NCBI GenBank assembly: GCA_016870915.1
Contig: VFZY01000003.1
Span: 1-64,000 of the forward strand
Length of the DNA stretch: 64,000 bases
DNA from: Acidobacteriota bacterium
GTDB taxonomy: Bacteria > Acidobacteriota > Terriglobia > Bryobacterales > Bryobacteraceae
Reading direction: 5' to 3'
Within the stretch, counting starts at the first letter, position 1, and the number at the start of each line of letters is the position of its first letter. The translations under genes and the position numbers were made by a program. Shown piece by piece: positions 32,955-43,786 of the stretch. The notes beneath the pieces were generated by a model that saw only the letters and a program-made list of their open reading frames with translations, did not search any database and had not been told where the DNA came from.

Positions 32955-33371
32955 CTATTTGATCCAGCGATCAAGCCAAGCCGCGGCCGCCGAGCCCAAG
33001 GCGTTCAGGACGGCGCCCCAACAGATGTCGATGAGTGCCAATCGCAGGGGCCAATCCCGCACCAGCGAGTAGTTGGTCATCTCGTAGATCGCGTATACCA
33101 CCAGGCCGTAAGCGGCTCCCCAAACGAGCGCGGATGGAATCGGATTGGCTGCGGAGACCCTGGGCAAGACAAAGAGCACGATTCCGAGCGGGATGGCGAG
33201 ATAAACGATCAGTGCCGCCCAAAGAATGGGCTGCAACCCGTTTCCGGACATGCGGAGGAAAGACCCGAGTTCCCTCTTGTACAGTCCGGAGGCAACGATC
33301 CCCAGCCACAGGTAGTCCAGCGCCAACAAGATCGGCGGCAGGAACAGAAAGACTTTCACGGAATGCCACAT
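32955..33371 (-). CDS. DUF2177 family membrane protein
   Basis: 138 residues and four hydrophobic segments. The start MWHSVKVFLFLPPILLALDYLWLG and the motif VVYAIYEMTNYSLVRDWPLRLALIDICWGAVL are those of DUF2177 integral membrane proteins, whose function is unknown. The ATG at 33371 has GAGG 8 nt upstream. It ends the minus-strand arm of the cobalamin-regulator cluster, 5 nt behind the DUF1295 gene, so it is surely co-transcribed with it. In other bacteria DUF2177 genes recur beside DUF1295, CFA-synthase-like and LitR-type genes, which fits a role in membrane lipid modification. Confidence 0.85.
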   Translation of the reverse strand: MWHSVKVFLFLPPILLALDYLWLGIVASGLYKRELGSFLRMSGNGLQPILWAALIVYLAIPLGIVLFVLPRVSAANPIPSALVWGAAYGLVVYAIYEMTNYSLVRDWPLRLALIDICWGAVLNALGSAAAAWLDRWIK

Positions 33372-33376
33372 GGTAT

Positions 33377-34168
33377 CTACCTCGCAATGTTTCTTGGCTG
33401 CAGCCTTGGCGGCAGGGGGAAGAAGGGGCTCGTTCGTTCCCTGTAACGTTCGAACTCCGGATTCGCCTCGTACTTCTTCTCGAGCATGGGGATTCCCGAT
33501 ACCCCGAGGATCAAGGCGGTGATGGCAGCAGGGCCCGCTATGGTTTTCCACCCGCCAGGGGCAGAGCAGGCGATGAGCCAGACACCCCACCACAGTGTCA
33601 CCTCGCCGAAATAGTTTGGATGGCGTGTGTACTTCCAGAGACCGGAGGTGATCACTCGCCCCCGGTTGCGTGAATCAGCCTTGAAGCGCTTGAGTTGGAG
33701 GTCGCCCAGCGCCTCGAAGGCGAAACCTACCAGCCAGACGGCGGCACCGACAGCGTCAAGAGGCGTGAGGGCGGAATTCCGCTGAGCGAAGACGTAGGAC
33801 ACAGGAAGCAGAACAACAACAGCGAGAATCGCCTGCAGCAGAAACACTTGAAGGTACGAGCGGACCGCGAAGGTGTGCCCCCATTCCTCGCGCCACTTGC
33901 GGTAACGCCAGTCTTCGGCTTTTCCCTGATTCCTGGCGCCGATATGGAGCGACAGCCGCACCCCCCAAACGGTCACGAGCGCCAGTATCAGCAACGCGCG
34001 ACTCGATCCGTTGGACGTCGCGAGCCATGCCACGAGTGTGAGAACGACAAAGCCGATTCCCCAAGCGACATCGGCAACATCATTCCGGCGCAGCCTTATG
34101 GACACGATGAACCAGAGGCTCGCGTACACGATTGCAGCGCATAGTTGAAGAAGCACTACGTCGACCAT
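33377..34168 (-). CDS. DUF1295 membrane protein (steroid 5-alpha-reductase-like)
   Basis: 263 residues, about six membrane segments. The C-terminal motif LWKYTRHPNYFGEVTLWWGVW and the end GIPMLEKKYEANPEFERYRERTSPFFP are those of DUF1295, a bacterial branch of the 5-alpha-reductase/isoprenylcysteine methyltransferase superfamily, which binds NADPH or SAM at the HPNY region. The likely reaction is reduction of an unsaturated lipid, but substrate is unknown. The ATG at 34168 is the first in frame. It lies 94 nt after an SRPBCC gene on the same strand and 5 nt before DUF2177. Confidence 0.87.
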   Translation of the reverse strand: MVDVVLLQLCAAIVYASLWFIVSIRLRRNDVADVAWGIGFVVLTLVAWLATSNGSSRALLILALVTVWGVRLSLHIGARNQGKAEDWRYRKWREEWGHTFAVRSYLQVFLLQAILAVVVLLPVSYVFAQRNSALTPLDAVGAAVWLVGFAFEALGDLQLKRFKADSRNRGRVITSGLWKYTRHPNYFGEVTLWWGVWLIACSAPGGWKTIAGPAAITALILGVSGIPMLEKKYEANPEFERYRERTSPFFPLPPRLQPRNIAR

Positions 34169-34262: not shown

Positions 34263-34706
34263 TCATCGAGTTCCTTCCTCACAATAGCGTTTGGTCACGC
34301 TGTGGCGATGGCGGAACATCTGTCCTAGACCTAAAGCGGTGGCCCAGGCAAGCAAGCGATTCGCCCATTTGCCACCAGGAAGGAGATACTCGATCCGGTC
34401 GGTCAATCGGGTAGCGTTTCCAAGGGGCTCGAACTCGTGGCGGTGAATCCACAGGGCGAACGGACCCTCGATTTGCTGGTCTTCGAAGAAGCGGTTCCTT
34501 TCCAGCGCAGAATGCAGGGCTGTCCAGCGGAATGGTCCGACCATGAGATCGACGCGAGCGCCGGGCTCGATGCCGCCCGATCTCTTGATCACGCGCACTG
34601 GTGGAAAGGCCGGACTTAGAAGGCGCAGTGCGTCTTCTCGTTCGTGAAAGGCGAATACCTTCTCTACTGGGGCCTGAATCACTACGCTCCGGAGAAAATG
34701 GGGCAT
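34263..34706 (-). CDS. SRPBCC family protein (second copy)
   Basis: 147 residues of START/Bet v1-like (SRPBCC) type: it begins MPHFLRSVVIQAPVEKVFAFHEREDALRLLSPAF, the usual first strand and V-shaped helices, and has FEDQQIEGPFALWIHRHEFE and TRLTDRIEYLLPGG in the sheet. These proteins bind lipids or polyketides in a deep cavity. It is related to the SRPBCC protein encoded at 36069 but only moderately similar (both keep HRHEFE/HTHRFE and a D-x-I/V-x-Y strand). The ATG at 34706 is 4 nt after the stop of the SDR gene; an upstream start at 34760 would overlap that gene by 50 nt and adds nothing conserved. Confidence 0.85.
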   Translation of the reverse strand: MPHFLRSVVIQAPVEKVFAFHEREDALRLLSPAFPPVRVIKRSGGIEPGARVDLMVGPFRWTALHSALERNRFFEDQQIEGPFALWIHRHEFEPLGNATRLTDRIEYLLPGGKWANRLLAWATALGLGQMFRHRHSVTKRYCEEGTR

Positions 34707-34710
34707 GGTG

Positions 34711-36072
34711 TCAGCGTTCCAACAGCCCTTGCCGGGCGATGCCTTGCAACATCCCGCCAAAGATGAAATGGTGCAAGGGAGAAACGGCGTACCAATAGGC
34801 GCGGCCTAATAAACCCTTCGGGTCGAAGGTCGCGGTCTGTTGGATGACGGTGCCGGTGGGATCCCTGGTGACTTCGAACTCGAGCCAGGCGCGGCCCGGC
34901 AGTTTCATCTCGGCCGCAAGGCGCAGGCGGTGGTTGAGTTCAAACGCCTCGACGCGCCAAAAATCGACTGTGTCCCCGACCCGAAGCGATTCAGCGTCAC
35001 GCCGGCCGCGCCTGAGGCCGACGCCACCGAAAACACGATCCAGGAGCCCCCGAAGTTGCCATAACCAGTTTGCGTAGTACCAACCCCTCTTGCCGCCGAT
35101 CCGCCGGATGGGTGCAAACGCCTGCCCTGGAGAGATGTTGACATGGACGCGCCGGGAATCGACCATCAGGTACCTTTCGTCCGCACTGAGTGCCGCGCGG
35201 ATTGCCTCCCGGTATCCGCAAGGACGGATCTTGAATTCGGCCAGGGCACTGGGATCCTCGACGATCGTGGCGTGGCAGATGCTATCGATGAGCTTCCGGC
35301 CGACGCGGGCGTAGAGCGGAGTCACCAGACCCAACCAAAGGCTCGAAAGGCGCGGCGTCAGAAGCGGGACGGAGATCACGAGCCGTTTGAGACCTCTTTG
35401 GCGGGCGTACTCTTGCATGAGTCCCCCGTATGAGACCCTGTCGGCTCCTCCGATTTCGAAAATTCTATTGCTCTTGCCGGGCAAGTCCAAGGCCGCGATC
35501 AAGTATGAGAGAAGATCGGCGATGGCGATGGGCTGAGCCGCCACCGAGACCCAGCGTGGCGCAATCATAACCGGCAGCCGTTCCACCAGCGAGCGGATCA
35601 TTTCAAACGACAGGCTTCCCGATCCGATCACAACCGATGCGCGGAACTCGACGACGGGAACGCCGGTTGACCTCAGAATCCCGCCCACCTCGTGACGGCT
35701 GCGCAAGTGTGGAGAGAGCTGGTCCCCCGCGTCTCCAAGGCCGCCAAGATAGATGATTCGCTGGACTCCCGCGTTGCGTGCCGCGTTGGCGAACATCTGC
35801 GCGGCAAGCCGGTCGCGCTCCTCAAAATCCTGCGTCGAGCTCATCGAGTGGATCAAGTAGTAGGCCGTTGTGACGCCCGCCAGGGCGGCAGTCAACGCTG
35901 CGGAGTCGAGGACGTCGCCTGCGATGACTTGTAGCCCGGTGCCTTCCCTGACCGGGACGGCCTCCGGGCGCCGCGCCAAACATCGCACAGGGTGACCCTG
36001 GGCAATGAGAGCGTCCAGCAGTTGCCCGCCGACGTAGCCAGTTGCGCCGGTGATCAATATCCGCGGCGTCAC
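34711..36072 (-). CDS. SDR-family NAD(P)-binding protein with C-terminal DUF2867
   Basis: 453 residues. The N-terminal atypical SDR domain has ILITGATGYVGGQLLDALIA (glycine-rich nucleotide loop), VIAGDVLD and AYYLIHSM, with RIIYLGGLGD replacing the classical YxxxK. The C-terminal 150 residues (YYANWLWQLRGLLDRVFGG, DFWRVEAFELNHRLRLAAEM, PGRAWLEFEV, FDPKGLLGRAYWYAVSPLHHFIFGGM) are DUF2867, which I recall as a Bet v1-like fold. The overall length fits known SDR-DUF2867 fusions. It shares ATGA-type overlap (4 nt) with the preceding SRPBCC gene and is followed after 4 nt by another SRPBCC gene, so three related lipid-binding-type domains sit in a row. Confidence 0.9.
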   Translation of the reverse strand: MTPRILITGATGYVGGQLLDALIAQGHPVRCLARRPEAVPVREGTGLQVIAGDVLDSAALTAALAGVTTAYYLIHSMSSTQDFEERDRLAAQMFANAARNAGVQRIIYLGGLGDAGDQLSPHLRSRHEVGGILRSTGVPVVEFRASVVIGSGSLSFEMIRSLVERLPVMIAPRWVSVAAQPIAIADLLSYLIAALDLPGKSNRIFEIGGADRVSYGGLMQEYARQRGLKRLVISVPLLTPRLSSLWLGLVTPLYARVGRKLIDSICHATIVEDPSALAEFKIRPCGYREAIRAALSADERYLMVDSRRVHVNISPGQAFAPIRRIGGKRGWYYANWLWQLRGLLDRVFGGVGLRRGRRDAESLRVGDTVDFWRVEAFELNHRLRLAAEMKLPGRAWLEFEVTRDPTGTVIQQTATFDPKGLLGRAYWYAVSPLHHFIFGGMLQGIARQGLLER

Positions 36073-36545
36073 GCGGCCACTTCCTTCTGCCCGCCAAACA
36101 AGAGATGAATTTTTTCGCGGCGATACTCAAAGATTTTCTTCACGTCGGACCTCACTATCCAGGCATGAACCAGGAGCCCGAGGATGCCAAAAGGCAACCT
36201 GTATCTGACGATATCAACCATCCGGGTTGTTTCGCCGTGTGCCTCAAAGCGGTGCGTGTGATGCCAGAGCCGGTAGGGCCCGGATCTCTGAACGTCCACG
36301 AACCGGTGCGGAGCATTCCACTGGCGAATTTCCGTGGTCCATCGAACCGGTAAGCCGTGCAATCGCAGCCGGTAGCGGATGAGGGATCCCCGGGCCAGGG
36401 AGGGAGAGTCCACAGAGACGATTCGAAAGCCCAACCAGGGGGGTGTGATCTCTTCGAGGTTTCGCGGGTCGGCGAAGAATGCGAAGACTTCGTCAATCGG
36501 GCGCGGGATCCATTGCTCCTGCCGCAGGGTGTGGAACCTCACCAT
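36069..36545 (-). CDS. SRPBCC family protein (cyclase/dehydrase-like)
   Basis: 158 residues: MVRFHTLRQEQWIPRPIDEVFAFFADPRNLEEITPPWLGF is the typical polyketide-cyclase/dehydrase start, followed by HRFVDVQRSGPYRLWHHTHRFEAHGETTRMVDIVRYRLPFG. Such proteins bind hydrophobic ligands. The ATG at 36545 overlaps the 3' end of the MerR regulator by 7 nt; the ATG at 36569 would overlap more and adds residues not usual for the family. Its own end overlaps the SDR gene by 4 nt, so regulator, SRPBCC and SDR are one translational unit. Confidence 0.88.
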   Translation of the reverse strand: MVRFHTLRQEQWIPRPIDEVFAFFADPRNLEEITPPWLGFRIVSVDSPSLARGSLIRYRLRLHGLPVRWTTEIRQWNAPHRFVDVQRSGPYRLWHHTHRFEAHGETTRMVDIVRYRLPFGILGLLVHAWIVRSDVKKIFEYRREKIHLLFGGQKEVAA

Positions 36546-37441
36546 GAACCATACCTCCAGCGGCGGCATTCACCTTCGAGCGCTGGGAGATCCTCCAGCA
36601 GCACGGTTTTCCTGCCAAGGTCGGAGAGATCCAGTTCACCAGCCCGGGCTCCGCCAAGCCACAGCTCCGCGGGTTCAGGCATGGCGGCGGCAAGCGCCCT
36701 GACTTCGCCGGCGGTGGATTCCTGGATTACCGTGATGCCCAGCAGGATCACGCGCGCCCCCGAGCGGCTCGCGGCCTCGGCGATTTCGTGCGACGGCAGA
36801 TCCGGGCCGAGATAGATGGGCTCGATGCCGGCCATCGAGGTGAGCATGGCGGAGGCCAGGATGCCGAACTCATGCAGCTCGCCCGCAGGCGTGGCGAAAA
36901 TCATCCTTGCCGAAGGGCTGCTGGGGCGAATGAGGCGGGCTACGGTACCCAGCAAGTTGCCGAGCATCTGCGAAATCAGGTGTTCTTGTGCAATCGCAAG
37001 GGTCCCTTGGTGCCAGCGAATTCCCACTTCTCTCATCAACGGGATAGCAACCTGATACACAAGATCCCGGGGGCTGAGACTGGCCCCCAATCGGCCAAGC
37101 TCGTCGGCAGCACTGGCCGGGTCGAACCTCTCGATTGCCGCAAGGACGGGTAGGATCAGGTCTCGCGACGGGGGAGGATCTTGGCTTTCCTCGGAAGACT
37201 GCGGCGCAAGAAGGTTCTCCAGTTCCTGATTGGAGAGCGCTGCGACAGTCCCGATGGCATGCCCCTTCTCGACCAACCTCGCGAGGAGACGCAAGCGGTC
37301 AACGTCCTCCACTCCGTACTGGCGTCCGCGGTCTGACCGTTCGGGCACAACGACCTTGTAGCGCCGTTCCCAGGCACGAAGCGTGTCCAGACTGAGACCG
37401 GTCGCTTTCGCCACGGCTCGAATTGGGTATCGGACGGCCAC
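36539..37441 (-). CDS. MerR-family regulator with cobalamin-binding domain (CarH/LitR-like photoreceptor)
   Basis: 300 residues. The N-terminal MerR HTH is RYPIRAVAKATGLSLDTLRAWERRY (4-28) with RQYGVEDVDRLRLLARLVEKG. The middle four-helix domain holds the cap motif W143-x9-E153-H154 (RWHQGTLAIAQEH) and the C-terminal Rossmann-like domain holds E188-x-H190-x-x-G193 (GELHEFG); H190 would be the lower cobalt ligand. This is the full signature of B12-dependent regulators of the CarH/LitR type, which repress in the dark as adenosylcobalamin-bound tetramers and fall apart in light. The start is GTG at 37441 with GGAG 4 nt before it. It faces a divergent lipid-gene arm across an intergenic palindrome. 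Confidence 0.92.
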   Translation of the reverse strand: MAVRYPIRAVAKATGLSLDTLRAWERRYKVVVPERSDRGRQYGVEDVDRLRLLARLVEKGHAIGTVAALSNQELENLLAPQSSEESQDPPPSRDLILPVLAAIERFDPASAADELGRLGASLSPRDLVYQVAIPLMREVGIRWHQGTLAIAQEHLISQMLGNLLGTVARLIRPSSPSARMIFATPAGELHEFGILASAMLTSMAGIEPIYLGPDLPSHEIAEAASRSGARVILLGITVIQESTAGEVRALAAAMPEPAELWLGGARAGELDLSDLGRKTVLLEDLPALEGECRRWRYGSW

Positions 37442-37449
37442 TGAACTCC

Positions 37450-37478
37450 ATCATAAAATGGAATCTTCAGATTGTCAA
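37450..37478 (-). promoter_or_regulatory. sigma70-type promoter of the MerR/CarH-like gene
   Basis: On the minus strand TTGACA (37478-37473) is followed after exactly 17 nt by TATGAT (37455-37450). The -10 box ends 8 nt before the GTG start, so the mRNA would have almost no leader. The -35 box is one end of the palindrome at 37472-37506, which suggests repression by the gene's own product. Confidence 0.75.
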
Positions 37479-37506
37479 CTGTTTGTCCTGGACAAATACT
37501 TGACAA
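37472..37506. promoter_or_regulatory. 35-bp imperfect palindrome, likely operator of the CarH-like regulator
   Basis: Left arm TTGTCAACTGTTTGTCC (37472-37488), centre T (37489), right arm GGACAAATACTTGACAA (37490-37506). Of 17 paired positions 14 match. Outer half-sites TTGTCAA/TTGACAA contain TTGACA boxes for both divergent directions; inner half-sites TTTGTCC/GGACAAA form a second dyad. MerR-type CarH/LitR operators are AT-rich dyads overlapping -35 boxes. On the + strand TTGACA (37500-37505) has AACAAT 18 nt further as a weak -10 for the FAD oxidoreductase gene. Confidence 0.7.
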
Positions 37507-37546
37507 CCGCCAACGATCCGGGCAACAATCATATTGAAGACACCAC

Positions 37547-38794
37547 GTGAAGCGAATTGCCATCATCGGTTCCGGGATCTCGGGCTTGTCAGCCGCTTAT
37601 TACTTAAGCCGCCGGCACGAGGTCCATTTGTTCGAGCGGGACGCTCGCTTGGGCGGGCATACGCACACAGTCATGGTGGATAGCGAAAAAGGGCGGATCC
37701 CTGTGGAAACCGGTTTCATCGTCCACAATGACCTCACCTATCCAAACTTCTGCCGGTTAATGAACGAGTTGGGCGTCGAAACCCAGCCGAGCGACATGTC
37801 CTTTGCCGTGACCGCGCTGGGCGGAAGTTTTGAATACTCAAGCCGCGGGTTGGGCGGCTTTTTCGCGCAAAAGAGCAACCTCTTTTCCGGGCGGCACTAC
37901 ACGCTGTTGAGGGAGATCCTGCGCTTCAATCGCGAGGCGCCGAAGGTGCTTGACGATCACGCCGCCGAGGGCAGGACGCTTGGGGAGTTCCTGGATGCCG
38001 GGAGATACTCGCCCGTGTTCGCCGAACGATATCTGATTCCGATGGCAGGCGCAGTCTGGTCCATGGCCCCGGAAGCAGTACCGGAGTTCCCGGTGGTGAC
38101 GCTGATCCGGTTCATGCAAAACCACGGCATGCTGGGGATCAACACTCATCCGAAGTGGAAGGTCATTCGAGGGGGCAGTCATTCTTACCTGGGCCCGATC
38201 ACGGCGCCGTTTCGGGATCGAATCGTGAAAGACGCAAGGATCACTTCCGTTGAGCGATCGGAGCGCGGCGTGGCGATCCAGTTCCAGGATCAGCCGGCCC
38301 GGCTGTTTGACGAAGTGGTGTTTGCGTGCCACGGCGACCAGGTCTTGCCGTTGCTCGCCCATCCCAGCGAGACCGAGCAAACGGTCCTCAGTTGCTTCAC
38401 AACGACCCGGAACGAAACCTGTCTGCACACGGATTCGTCCCTGCTGCCCAAGCGCGGTGCGGCGCGGGCTTCCTGGAACTACCTTCTCGGCGAAGCGGGC
38501 AAGGTGACTGTCACGTATCACATGAACCGATTGCAGTCGCTCCAGACCGAAGAGGACTACTGCGTGACATTGAACGCACACGGCGAACTGGATCGCCGGA
38601 AGGTTCTACGGTCGATGACCTATGAGCACCCGCTCTACAATCGTGCGTCAATCCGAGCGCAGGAACGTTGGGGCGAGATCAGCGGAAGACACCACACGCA
38701 TTACTGCGGCGCATATTGGTTCTATGGCTTTCACGAAGACGGCGTGCGCAGCGGCATACGCGTGGCTGAAGCGCTGGGAGTTTCCTGCTCATGA
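37547..38794 (+). CDS. FAD-dependent amine-oxidase-like oxidoreductase
   Basis: 415 residues with the dinucleotide-binding start RIAIIGSGISGLSAAYYLSRRHEVHLFERDARLGGHTHTV and the amine-oxidase/desaturase-like motifs VETGFIVHNDLTYPNFCRLM, WSMAPEAVPEFPVVTLIRFM and GAYWFYGFHEDGVRSGIRVAEAL near the FAD isoalloxazine end. It is the protein usually annotated NAD/FAD-binding or cyclopropane-fatty-acid-associated oxidoreductase that precedes DUF1365 and a CFA-synthase homologue in many bacteria. A role in oxidising a fatty acyl chain or isoprenoid is plausible but unproven. The start is GTG. It is the first gene of the plus arm, divergent from the regulator, and overlaps DUF1365 by 4 nt. Confidence 0.9.
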   Translation: MKRIAIIGSGISGLSAAYYLSRRHEVHLFERDARLGGHTHTVMVDSEKGRIPVETGFIVHNDLTYPNFCRLMNELGVETQPSDMSFAVTALGGSFEYSSRGLGGFFAQKSNLFSGRHYTLLREILRFNREAPKVLDDHAAEGRTLGEFLDAGRYSPVFAERYLIPMAGAVWSMAPEAVPEFPVVTLIRFMQNHGMLGINTHPKWKVIRGGSHSYLGPITAPFRDRIVKDARITSVERSERGVAIQFQDQPARLFDEVVFACHGDQVLPLLAHPSETEQTVLSCFTTTRNETCLHTDSSLLPKRGAARASWNYLLGEAGKVTVTYHMNRLQSLQTEEDYCVTLNAHGELDRRKVLRSMTYEHPLYNRASIRAQERWGEISGRHHTHYCGAYWFYGFHEDGVRSGIRVAEALGVSCS

Positions 38795-39588
38795 TGCCGG
38801 AATGCTTTGTTCCTGAAGCCGGCGTCTATTCAGGCACTCTGAGGCATCGCCGCTTTCGGCCTCGACCTCATGAGTTCACCTACGAAACCTTTATGGCGTT
38901 CCTGGACATCGACAGGATTCCGGAGCTCATGGCCCAGTCGCCGTTGACCAGTCACAACCGGTTCAACTGGGCCAGTTTTGACGACCGGGACCATTTCGGC
39001 GATCTCAGGCAGTCCCTGCGAGAACGCCTGGCTCAGGACGCCCGGGAGCACGGTGTTGCGTTGGAGAATGGTCCGGTGTTCCTGCTTACAAACCTTCGCT
39101 ATCTCGGGTACTGCTTCAATCCCATCTCCTTCTATTTTTGCTACGGCCGGGATGGCCGCTTGAGCACGATCCTCGCCGAGGTGAACAGCACGTTTGGCGA
39201 AAGCCACAACTACTGGCTTTCGCCGCACAATCGGCAACCCGGCAATGCTCTGCGCTATCAGTGTCCAAAGGCGATGCACGTATCGCCGTTCATGGGCATG
39301 AATCTGGCCTACGATTTCGCTTTGACGACGCCCGGCGAGCGGTTCGTGGCGCACATGAAGACGCTCGAGGATTCCCAGCCGATCTTTGACGCCACGCTCG
39401 ACCTGAGGCACGAGCCGTGGACCTCGCAAGTCCTGATGAGAGCCTTGGCACGTCATCCCTGGATGACGGCGAAGGTGATCACCGCAATTCACTGGGAAGC
39501 GTTGCGGCTTTTTCTGAAAGGAGTTCCAGTGTTTACTCGCCCAAGCCGAATGGGATCCGCTGTCGAGGAGGTCACGAAACGCACATGA
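38791..39588 (+). CDS. DUF1365 family protein
   Basis: 265 residues of DUF1365: GVYSGTLRHRRFRPRPHEFTYETFMAFLDIDRIPEL, NLRYLGYCFNPISFYFCY, TFGESHNYWL, KAMHVSPFMGMNLAYDF and FTLTTPGERF-like segments define the family. No catalytic mechanism is known to me; the conserved YCFNPISFYFCY block suggests a folded lipid- or cofactor-binding site. Its start lies inside the stop of the FAD gene (ATGA) and its stop overlaps the start of the CFA homologue (ATGA), so the three are translated as a coupled unit. Confidence 0.93.
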   Translation: MMPECFVPEAGVYSGTLRHRRFRPRPHEFTYETFMAFLDIDRIPELMAQSPLTSHNRFNWASFDDRDHFGDLRQSLRERLAQDAREHGVALENGPVFLLTNLRYLGYCFNPISFYFCYGRDGRLSTILAEVNSTFGESHNYWLSPHNRQPGNALRYQCPKAMHVSPFMGMNLAYDFALTTPGERFVAHMKTLEDSQPIFDATLDLRHEPWTSQVLMRALARHPWMTAKVITAIHWEALRLFLKGVPVFTRPSRMGSAVEEVTKRT

Positions 39589-40835
39589 GCATGCACTTCG
39601 CGCGCAGGGCTGTGTTCCGGATGCTCGAGAACCTGCGCCACGGGACTCTCGAAATCGTCTGCCCGGACACGACCTACTCCTTCGGTGAAGGCGACTTGTG
39701 CGCATCGATCAGGGTCCATCACGAGCGGTTCTTCTCGCGTGTGCTTTGGGGCGGCGCCGATGCGGCTGGAGATTCCTACATGGATGGGGACTGGTCGTCC
39801 CCCGATCCGGTTGCGGCCGTCCGCCTTGCCGTCCGCAATCTTAGGGACCTTGAGGGGGCGAACCCGATCCTTACGCTGGCGAGCCGCTTCTTTGACCGGC
39901 TGCGCCACCGGGCGAACCGGAATTCCATAGCCGGCAGCCAGCGAAACATTCACGCACACTACGATCTCAGCAACGCTTTCTTCCGGCTCTTTCTCGATCG
40001 CAGCATGGTCTACTCGAGCGCAGTCTATGAGCAGGCCAGTGATTCCCTGGAGAAAGCCCAGAGCGAGAAGCTCGACCGCATATGCCGGAAGCTGCGTCTG
40101 GACCCAAGCGACCATGTCCTTGAGATCGGAACCGGCTGGGGCGCTTTCGCACTGCACGCTTCCCGGAACTACGGCTGCAAGGTGACCACGACCACGATCA
40201 GCCGGCAGCAATACGACCAAGCCGGCGAGGCTTTCGCCGAGGCTGGTGAAGCGGGGACGAGGATAAGGCTATTGCTGGAGGATTACAGGAACCTGAAGGG
40301 GTCGTTCACCAAACTGGTGAGTATTGAGATGTTCGAAGCGGTGGGGCTTGAATACTACGACGCTTTTTTCTCGACCTGCGACCGTTTGCTGACGCCGGAC
40401 GGTTCGCTGGCGATGCAAACGATCACGATGAACGAGCATCGCTTTGACGCTTACAGCAGACGCAGTGACTGGATTCAAAAGCGCATCTTTCCCGGCGGGC
40501 AGTTGGCTTCCGTCCGGGAGATTCTGAATTCGCTCGTGCGTTCGACGCATCTGTCCATGTATCACCTGGAAGATCTCGGGCTGCACTACGCGGCGACGCT
40601 AGCGGAATGGCGGCGGCGTTTTCATCAAGAGGGTGGCCAGGTAAGGGCCTTGGGCTTCGACGAATCCTTTTGCCGGATGTGGGACTACTATCTGGCGTCC
40701 TGCGAGGGCACATTCCGCGAACGCCACGTGAGCGTCATTCAACTGATGCTGACCAAGAACGGGAACCAGTCGATTCTGTACGGAGAACCATGGCGGCAGG
40801 CGGGCACAGTTGCTGTCAGCGGTGCGAGCCTGTGA
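39585..40835 (+). CDS. cyclopropane-fatty-acid-synthase-like SAM methyltransferase
   Basis: 416 residues. An N-terminal lipid-binding part precedes the methyltransferase fold with VLEIGTGWGAFALHAS (178-193, SAM loop), TTTTISRQQYDQA and LVSIEMFEAVG (Glu251). The segment YSSAVYEQASDSLEKAQ carries Ser where E. coli Cfa has Cys139, and AMQTIT (Gln278) replaces LLHTIG with His266; both E. coli residues belong to the bicarbonate-binding active site. The protein may therefore methylate an acyl double bond without ring closure, as in furan- or branched-fatty-acid enzymes. GAGGAGG lies 14 nt before the ATG at 39585. It ends the plus arm of the cluster. Confidence 0.9.
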   Translation: MSMHFARRAVFRMLENLRHGTLEIVCPDTTYSFGEGDLCASIRVHHERFFSRVLWGGADAAGDSYMDGDWSSPDPVAAVRLAVRNLRDLEGANPILTLASRFFDRLRHRANRNSIAGSQRNIHAHYDLSNAFFRLFLDRSMVYSSAVYEQASDSLEKAQSEKLDRICRKLRLDPSDHVLEIGTGWGAFALHASRNYGCKVTTTTISRQQYDQAGEAFAEAGEAGTRIRLLLEDYRNLKGSFTKLVSIEMFEAVGLEYYDAFFSTCDRLLTPDGSLAMQTITMNEHRFDAYSRRSDWIQKRIFPGGQLASVREILNSLVRSTHLSMYHLEDLGLHYAATLAEWRRRFHQEGGQVRALGFDESFCRMWDYYLASCEGTFRERHVSVIQLMLTKNGNQSILYGEPWRQAGTVAVSGASL

Positions 40836-40994: not shown

Positions 40995-41215
40995 CAGGCG
41001 GCCCGGGCGGCGAGGCGCACAGCCGGAAGCATCACGGCGATCAAAGCCCTGCTCCTGGGTCTTCAGGTGTTCCCGGCCCGCGGGCGTAATGGAGGGCGGG
41101 ATAAGCGGAGCAGGAGTTGGGCGATGCCGTAGCCGTGCTGGGAGCCGCGGGTGAGGGGGTTCAGGACGAGAAGGTCGAGGGTGCCGGGCAGGAGTCCGGA
41201 GGTAGGGTATGTTGA
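40995..41215 (-). pseudogene. PadR-family regulator remnant
   Basis: On the minus strand TSGLLPGTLDLLVLNPLTRG then SQHGYGIAQLLLRL is the N-terminal helix and HTH opening of PadR regulators. In a shifted frame right after it come ITPAGREHLKTQEQGFDRR, which is the PadR wing and final helix. The middle of the domain (about 40 residues) is missing and no frame joins the two parts. It is a decayed gene with an internal deletion. The rest of the 638-bp gap holds the minisatellite and no other recognised content. Confidence 0.6.
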
Positions 41216-41280
41216 TCGATCCATCGGCCACCAAGGGATCGACGATGCCATCTGGCTCCGGTGGGGGCGGGCTTTGTGGG

Positions 41281-41488
41281 GCTTCGCGAGGCTACGCTTC
41301 GTCGGTTCACGCTTCGCGAGACTACGCTTTGTTGGTTCACGCTTCGCGAGGCTACGCTTCGTTGGTTCACGCTTCGCGAGGCTACGCTTCGTTGGTTCAC
41401 GCTTCGCGACGCTACGCTTCGTTGGTCCCACGCTTCGCGACGCTACGCTTCGTTGGTCCCACGCTTCGCGACGCTACGCTTCGTCGAA
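41281..41488. repeat. 30-bp minisatellite, seven units
   Basis: Unit GCTTCGCGAGGCTACGCTTC plus GTTGGTTCAC starts at 41281, 41311, 41341, 41371 and 41401, and 31-bp variants with GGTCCCAC start near 41432 and 41463. Units differ by one to four bases. The last unit overlaps the final codons and stop of the MFS gene on the minus strand. The array stays open in several frames (for example a 10-residue VNQRSVASRS repeat) but has no ribosome binding site of its own. Confidence 0.9.
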
Positions 41489-42748
41489 GACGCGGCGCTT
41501 GGGATCGACGAACAGCCAGGCGAGGGACGCGGCGACGAACAGCCCGGCCAGGACGTAGAGTGGCGCTGACCAGGAGCCGTACTTCTCAACGATGTAGGAG
41601 AAGACCAGCGGGCTTAGGAAGCCGCCCACCTGGCCCGCCGTGTTCATGGTGGCTCCGACGACGCCGGAATGGGGCCCGCCGATATCGATGCAGGTGGCCC
41701 AGGCGGCCCCGAGGGTGAACATGATGAAGGTGGCCGACACGGCCAGGAGCACGCCGGCCACTTCGGCATCGGGTGAGGCGATGCCCGCCAGCATCACCAG
41801 GCCCGCCACCAGATAGGCCAGGGAGCCGACGCCGGCACGCCCGGCGCGGAGACCGAGCCGGGCCGCCACGCGGTCCGTGGTGATGCCGCCGAACAGATCG
41901 CCGGCGACGGCCATGGTGAGCGGCAGTCCGGCGAAGAACGCCTGCCTCATGGAGGTCAGGCCGCGGCCCTTTTCCAGGTACGTGGGCAGCCAGGTGATGT
42001 AGAAATAGAACGCGTAGCTGTTGGCGAAGTATTGAATGCAGAGCGGAATGATGTTGCGGTTGCCGAACAGGCGCCCCCAATCGACGCCGGAGTGCACCTC
42101 ATGGCGGCGGCTGGAAACGATCAACTCGGCTTCGGCGGCATTGACGGAGGCGTGTTCTCCGGGCTCATCACGGAACCAGCGGTACCAGGCATAGGCCCAG
42201 AGGAAGCCGATGACGCCGAAGACGACGAACAGGGACCGCCACGGCAGCACGGTGAGCAGCAGAGTCACCAGGATCGGGGTGATGCCGCCCGAAAGATGCG
42301 CGCCCATGAAGAACACGCCCTGCACAGTGCCGCGTTCCCGGGCCGGAATCCAGCGCGAAAACGTCCGGGCCACACAGGGCCAGGCGCCGGCCTCACCGGC
42401 CCCGAACAGGAACCGCACGGCCAGCAGTGAGAGGTAGTTGAACGCACCCGCGGTGAGGATGGTAAACACGCTCCACCAGGCGACGATGCGCGCCAGGACG
42501 CGCCGGGTACCCACACGGTCAGCCCACCAGGCGGTGGGGATTTCGAAGGCGCCGTAGGCCAGTGTGAAGGCGCTGAACACCCAGCTCATCTGGGTCATGG
42601 AGAGCCCGAGGTCGCGCATGATATCGGGGGCCATCTTGGAGATGCACACCCTGTCCAGATACGTGATCATGGCGAGCGACACGGTGAAGGCCACCACGCG
42701 GTAGCGGACACGAGTGGGTGCGGCGGCGGAAACGGCGGCCGGTGTCAT
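41474..42748 (-). CDS. MFS transporter (anion:cation symporter type)
   Basis: 424 residues and 12 predicted membrane segments. It has [28 protein letters not shown] at TM1, the MFS loop motif [15 protein letters not shown] between TM2 and TM3, and [33 protein letters not shown], which is the signature of the ACS family (glucarate, galactonate, hexuronate or similar acids in proton symport). It shares a 4-nt overlap with the GntR/FCD regulator gene upstream, which probably controls it in response to the substrate. Its last codons (FDEA and stop) are also the first unit of the 30-bp minisatellite. Confidence 0.92.
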
Positions 42749-43702: not shown

Positions 43703-43786
43703 TGCGGACGAGAGGACTTGAACCTCCACGGGATTGCTCCCGCTAGCACCTCAAGCTAGTGCGTCTGCCAATTCCGCCACGTCCGC
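43703..43786 (-). tRNA. tRNA-Leu (anticodon GAG)
   Basis: The minus strand folds as a class II tRNA: acceptor GCGGACG/CGTCCGC with A discriminator, D arm GGCGGAATTGGCAGACGC, anticodon stem CTAGC-TTGAGGT-GCTAG with anticodon GAG, a variable arm GGGAGCAATCCCG and a T arm with GGTTCAAGTCC. The CCA end is encoded (43700-43702). It lies 14 nt behind secG on the same strand. In E. coli a tRNA-Leu(GAG) gene also follows secG, so this is old synteny. Confidence 0.95.

Follow-up and report, generated by a model that had tools for sequence, protein, structure and literature searches.

What reads a 35-bp palindrome that lies between two divergent operons, and could the same protein switch the genes on both sides? 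This question is raised by a stretch of 64,000 nucleotides from a member of the Acidobacteriota (the window, contig VFZY01000003.1), in which the palindrome separates the gene of a regulator with B12-binding domains from that of an FAD enzyme.

Results

In the regulator a MerR-type HTH precedes the B12-binding four-helix and Rossmann domains. It showed the Pfam domains MerR_1 and B12-binding_2 above cut-off, with B12-binding just under its cut-off, and matched the solved Thermus CarH structures over its full length (3whp, E 8e-26; 5c8d, E 1e-25). It carries the Wx9EH cap motif (WHQGTLAIAQEH at residue 143) and the lower-axial-histidine motif ExHxxG (ELHEFG at residue 188), the pair of motifs by which CarH is defined in the literature (PMC8156234). 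The score against the NCBIfam CarH equivalog was 110 bits versus a cut-off of 400, and by homology the protein is a divergent CarH homologue outside the curated equivalog. A supply of AdoCbl is plausible, since the genome encodes a cobalamin adenosyltransferase. The genes on both sides of the palindrome and the elements within it are listed in Table 1. The -10 box of carH is separated from the start codon by 8 nt (37439-37455, minus strand), and mostly by 6-11 nt in relatives; from this short distance, an mRNA of carH with no leader or almost none is predicted. The true start of the DUF2177 open reading frame is probably downstream of 33593, because the domain match begins at residue 79.

Table 1. 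Position, strand and description of the features around the palindrome.
Feature	Position	Strand	Remarks
ORF with DUF2177 membrane domain	32955..33593	-	
DUF1295 membrane protein	33377..34168	-	Probably in operon of carH
Second SRPBCC protein	34263..34760	-	Operon of carH
NmrA/SDR-DUF2867 protein	34711..36072	-	Operon of carH
SRPBCC (Polyketide_cyc) protein	36069..36569	-	Overlaps carH; same operon
CarH-type repressor/photoreceptor homologue (carH)	36539..37441	-	300 aa; MerR HTH and B12-binding domains
carH promoter, -35 TTGACA and -10 TATGAT	37473-37478 and 37450-37455	-	17-nt spacer; sigma-70 match 11/12
Putative CarH operator	37472..37506	.	Four outward-pointing repeats, 11-bp spacing, around T37489
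Outer repeat TTGACAA (TnnACA)	37472..37478	- (regulator sense)	Holds carH -35; from sequence and conserved alignment columns
Inner repeat GGACAAA	37482..37488	- (regulator sense)	Reads AnnACA (pseudo-repeat); from sequence
Inner repeat GGACAAA	37490..37496	+ (FAD sense)	Full TnnACA when T37489 is included; from sequence
Outer repeat TTGACAA	37500..37506	+ (FAD sense)	Holds FAD -35; from sequence and conserved alignment columns
FAD-side -35 TTGACA	37500-37505	+	
FAD-side best candidate -10 AACAAT	37524..37529	+	Weak; 18-nt spacer; 10/12 including TTGACA
FAD amine-oxidase-type enzyme	37547..38794	+	UfaD-like by operon order
DUF1365 protein	38791..39588	+	UfaO-like
CMAS fatty-acyl methyltransferase	39585..40835	+	UfaM-like

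The palindrome, TTGTCAACTGTTTGTCC-T-GGACAAATACTTGACAA, consists, as a sequence-only reading had indicated, of two 17-nt arms around a single T. It is the best of its size in the window: no other palindrome with 17-nt arms scored higher. Our recount gave agreement of the arms at 15 of 17 positions, where that reading had counted 14. Its remaining elements were found as described, namely the nested dyads TTGTCAA/TTGACAA and TTTGTCC/GGACAAA (each perfect, 7/7), the TTGACA of the regulator with 17-nt spacing to TATGAT, and the TTGACA facing the FAD gene. In a first-order Markov simulation 15/17 was reached with a 1-nt centre in 5 of 300 windows and with any centre of 0-5 nt in 20 of 300, so that the palindrome score taken alone is mildly unusual, only modestly significant and no proof. 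Random recurrence of the dyad in the genome, which by the earlier reading would have counted against an operator, was not seen: with up to 3 mismatches allowed, the site had no second match in the 6.6-Mb assembly. The same scan of the full site gave no further regulon members. A half-operator pattern with at most 1 mismatch matched the genome 10 times (the two arms of the site itself and 8 places elsewhere), and its control also 10 times. When 47 distinct sites were aligned, conserved positions were confined to the 35 bp and to the -10 box on either side, and the alignment took in further families and classes within the phylum.

Published CarH operators are built of tandem 11-bp direct repeats of the form nnnnTnnACAn (three in Thermus, four in Bacillus), one of which commonly contains the -35 box, and the CarH dimer of Cystobacter needs two tandem repeats (PMC9304148). 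In the window each arm of the palindrome carries a pair of TnnACA repeats with a spacing of exactly 11 bp, read on the sense strand of the gene on that side. All four point outward (<- <- -> ->), and the -35 box of each promoter is formed by the outer repeat of the arm next to it. The all-in-tandem, one-strand order of the studied operators is absent here, there being two repeats per strand placed head-to-head; that order is a trait of the operators studied so far and lies outside the definition of the protein family. As the centre base is common to both arms, only one strand can have the T of the inner repeat, and for the same reason the inner repeat on the regulator strand reads AnnACA. The centre base favours the strand of the partner operon in 35 of the 47 sites, that of the window included. 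In three distant homologues from the same phylum (L090, L091 and L093), carH is preceded by a perfect tandem array of three 11-bp TnnACA repeats, which was seen in 0 of 1560 shuffles. Both operator designs thus exist within one protein family and, with tandem direct repeats in the published operators and in some distant relatives, the site in the window is a head-to-head variant.

The sequence-only reading had assigned the two nested dyads to two dimers. In such a scheme CarH would bind in the manner of other MerR proteins, for which (pseudo)palindromes are usual (PMC8156234), with the inner and the outer dyad, both of them perfect, each taken by a dimer. However, the studied CarH proteins read 11-bp direct repeats, the Cystobacter dimer needs its pair in tandem, the repeats inside each arm are exactly 11 bp apart, and the three homologues above have perfect tandem triplets. 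We therefore consider binding to nested dyads rather unlikely; the dyads themselves are real, and as binding units two arms of tandem 11-bp TnnACA repeats fit the literature better.

In the protein tree the symmetric design occurred in 43 of 51 rows of the clade containing the window, and 6 of the 8 rows scored as having none are genomes with carH distal in its operon. The tree did not show a single origin of the symmetric operator: approximately 10 changes are needed, in part because several of the rows scored as having none have a distal carH. The outlying symmetric calls L096 and L098, and also L002, L054 and L068, are marginal. An apparent extra 11-bp repeat outside one arm was observed in the symmetric operators of L082 (166-211) and L056 (3682-3727), which are possible intermediates between the two designs.

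The -10 motif TAnnnT was perfect at the 17-nt spacer in 29 of the 47 sites on the carH side and in 15 of 47 on the opposite, partner side, and at any other spacing in 0-4 and 0-6 of 47, respectively. Judged from this conservation, both divergent promoters are evolutionarily real. In the window the FAD side offers only CAACAA at the canonical 17-nt spacer; the -10 that relatives conserve at this spacing is here degraded or shifted.

The partner operon has the gene order of RPA2571-2570-2569, which are the furan fatty acid genes ufaD, ufaO and ufaM (PMC7380195), and the order FAD enzyme, DUF1365 and CMAS was also found in L140, L142 and L143. Furan fatty acids quench singlet oxygen and are protective (PMC7380195). 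Based on this gene content the partner operon probably makes furan fatty acids. NCBIfam gave no family above cut-off for the FAD, DUF1365 and CMAS proteins. In many relatives the operator is followed by the gene of a fatty acid desaturase and only then by the FAD gene (e.g. L140, 7136-7963); the desaturase would supply the unsaturated chain that is methylated by UfaM. The genome of the window is without a desaturase at that place, and a 39% homologue is encoded elsewhere (G000:C116:15221-15997), without the operator. Next to the CMAS gene, at 41060-41560, overlapping open reading frames encode a short repeated peptide (e.g. REPTKRSLAK), apparently from a tandem DNA repeat, and a tRNA gene was identified with Rfam at 43703-43786 (minus strand).

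The desaturase of the close relatives and the poor FAD-side -10 (CAACAA at 17 nt, AACAAT at 18 nt) would also agree with control by CarH of its own operon only, the TTGACA facing the FAD gene being a relic that stayed behind when a heading desaturase gene and its -10 were lost. Yet the window's operator keeps all four repeats intact, with 20/20 core positions; other genomes (L075, L046, L068, L067 and L070) have the FAD gene directly across the operator; and AACAAT at 18 nt still gives 10/12 together with TTGACA. Such a one-sided operator is, in our opinion, improbable.

Of the 237 genomes of the family, 31 encode an orthologue of the regulator; beyond the family, orthologues were also found in the class and phylum. 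The family genomes were searched for the operator with a 24-position pattern at up to 3 mismatches, with the reversed pattern as a control. The operator pattern was present in 28 of the 237 genomes, once in each, and all 28 belong to the 31 with the regulator (hypergeometric P ~2e-33), and the control had 0 matches in the same genomes. On the other hand, many relatives have an imperfect outer repeat in the arm facing carH. In genomes with carH at the distal end of its operon, the operator has kept its place between the two divergent leading genes and does not accompany carH, as expected of a shared promoter element. This comparison between genomes turns a modest palindrome into a strong case. 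It is also difficult to reconcile with binding of the palindrome by some other, unlinked regulator to which the closeness of carH would be incidental: the site does look like the operators of many dimeric regulators, but its co-occurrence with carH, one site per genome, its conservation into other families and classes and its match to the published CarH repeat make this very improbable. An RNA hairpin (terminator or attenuator), into which the 15/17 inverted repeat could fold, was rejected, as the palindrome is upstream of both predicted start points and so in neither transcript, and no terminator-like site or Rfam match was found there.

Discussion

Based on the observed anatomy, conservation, co-occurrence and gene content, we consider it highly probable that the palindrome serves as operator for the neighbouring CarH, a repressor of class I (adenosyl-B12), which would silence both operons, the one for membrane-protecting fatty acids included, in the dark and be released by light. 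The sequence-only reading had proposed that the regulator is of CarH type, that one operator covers both -35 boxes, and that repression acts in both directions. The first agrees with the structure matches, the domains and both B12 motifs. The second is backed by the co-occurrence of site and regulator and by the -10 boxes conserved at 17 nt on both sides, and the third would follow from homology together with that co-occurrence and those boxes.

From these observations we infer the following about DNA binding by CarH, its oligomeric state, repression, the response to light and the lipid that is made. In the dark, AdoCbl-CarH would cover all four repeats, probably as a tetramer, or as two dimers with one per arm; one dimer per arm is favoured because CarH is known to need tandem repeats. 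The bound protein would keep sigma-70 RNA polymerase off both -35 boxes, so that both carH-SRPBCC-SDR-SRPBCC-DUF1295 to the left and FAD-DUF1365-CMAS to the right would be shut. Light would break the Co-C bond and the oligomer would fall apart, and with the release of CarH both operons would be induced together. The right-hand operon would then probably lead to furan fatty acids that quench singlet oxygen. If this is true, soil bacteria would have a lipid pathway that quenches singlet oxygen linked to a direct light sensor, and the site would be a compact bidirectional green-light promoter.

More broadly, we lean slightly towards the view that a B12-photoreceptor subgroup of the phylum switched its operator from tandem to two-fold symmetric, head-to-head repeats that end in the -35 boxes of two divergent promoters. 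This would place a light-operated double lock on the furan fatty acid pathway, not on carotenoids, and would imply that the CarH oligomer binds with a symmetry unlike that of the solved complexes.

Class II LitR of Pseudomonas (PplR/PmlR2), which belongs to the same CarH/LitR family, controls a light-inducible regulon with ufaM, an FAD oxidoreductase and an SDR (PMC9758184), and through this control of ufaM the link from light to furan lipids has a precedent. Unlike the regulator in the window, with its B12-binding motifs, class II LitR does not bind B12; it acts together with a LOV partner in the case studied, and its site, T(G/A)TACA-N12-TGTA(C/T)A, differs from the operator described here. 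In the open literature searched we found neither control of ufaM by a class I B12 sensor with such an operator nor a description of acidobacterial CarH operators. The UfaD-UfaO-UfaM pathway of Rhodobacter and Rhodopseudomonas resembles the partner operon in its FAD enzyme, DUF1365 protein and SAM methyltransferase and in their order (PMC7380195). In Rhodobacter, however, the furan pathway is raised on loss of the ChrR regulator, whereas the window has a B12 light sensor in a position to regulate such genes.

In the divergent CarH operators of Sorangiineae and Nannocystineae, one operator is likewise expected to serve two divergent promoters (PMC9304148), but their repeats are tandem or partly degenerate, and those of the window form a symmetric palindrome. 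CarH is a structurally solved light switch, and its unusual recognition of direct repeats is a textbook feature. With many orthologues that have the symmetric operator, and relatives with tandem repeats in the same phylum, it becomes testable how one oligomer reads either geometry. The CarH proteins of Thermus thermophilus and Bacillus megaterium share with the regulator in the window the MerR HTH and B12 domains, the Wx9EH motif, the 11-bp TnnACA repeats and a -35 box inside a repeat. They differ from it in their known targets, which are carotenoid genes, and in their three or four tandem repeats, in place of which the window has two and two head-to-head repeats that share one centre base and hold a -35 box at each end.
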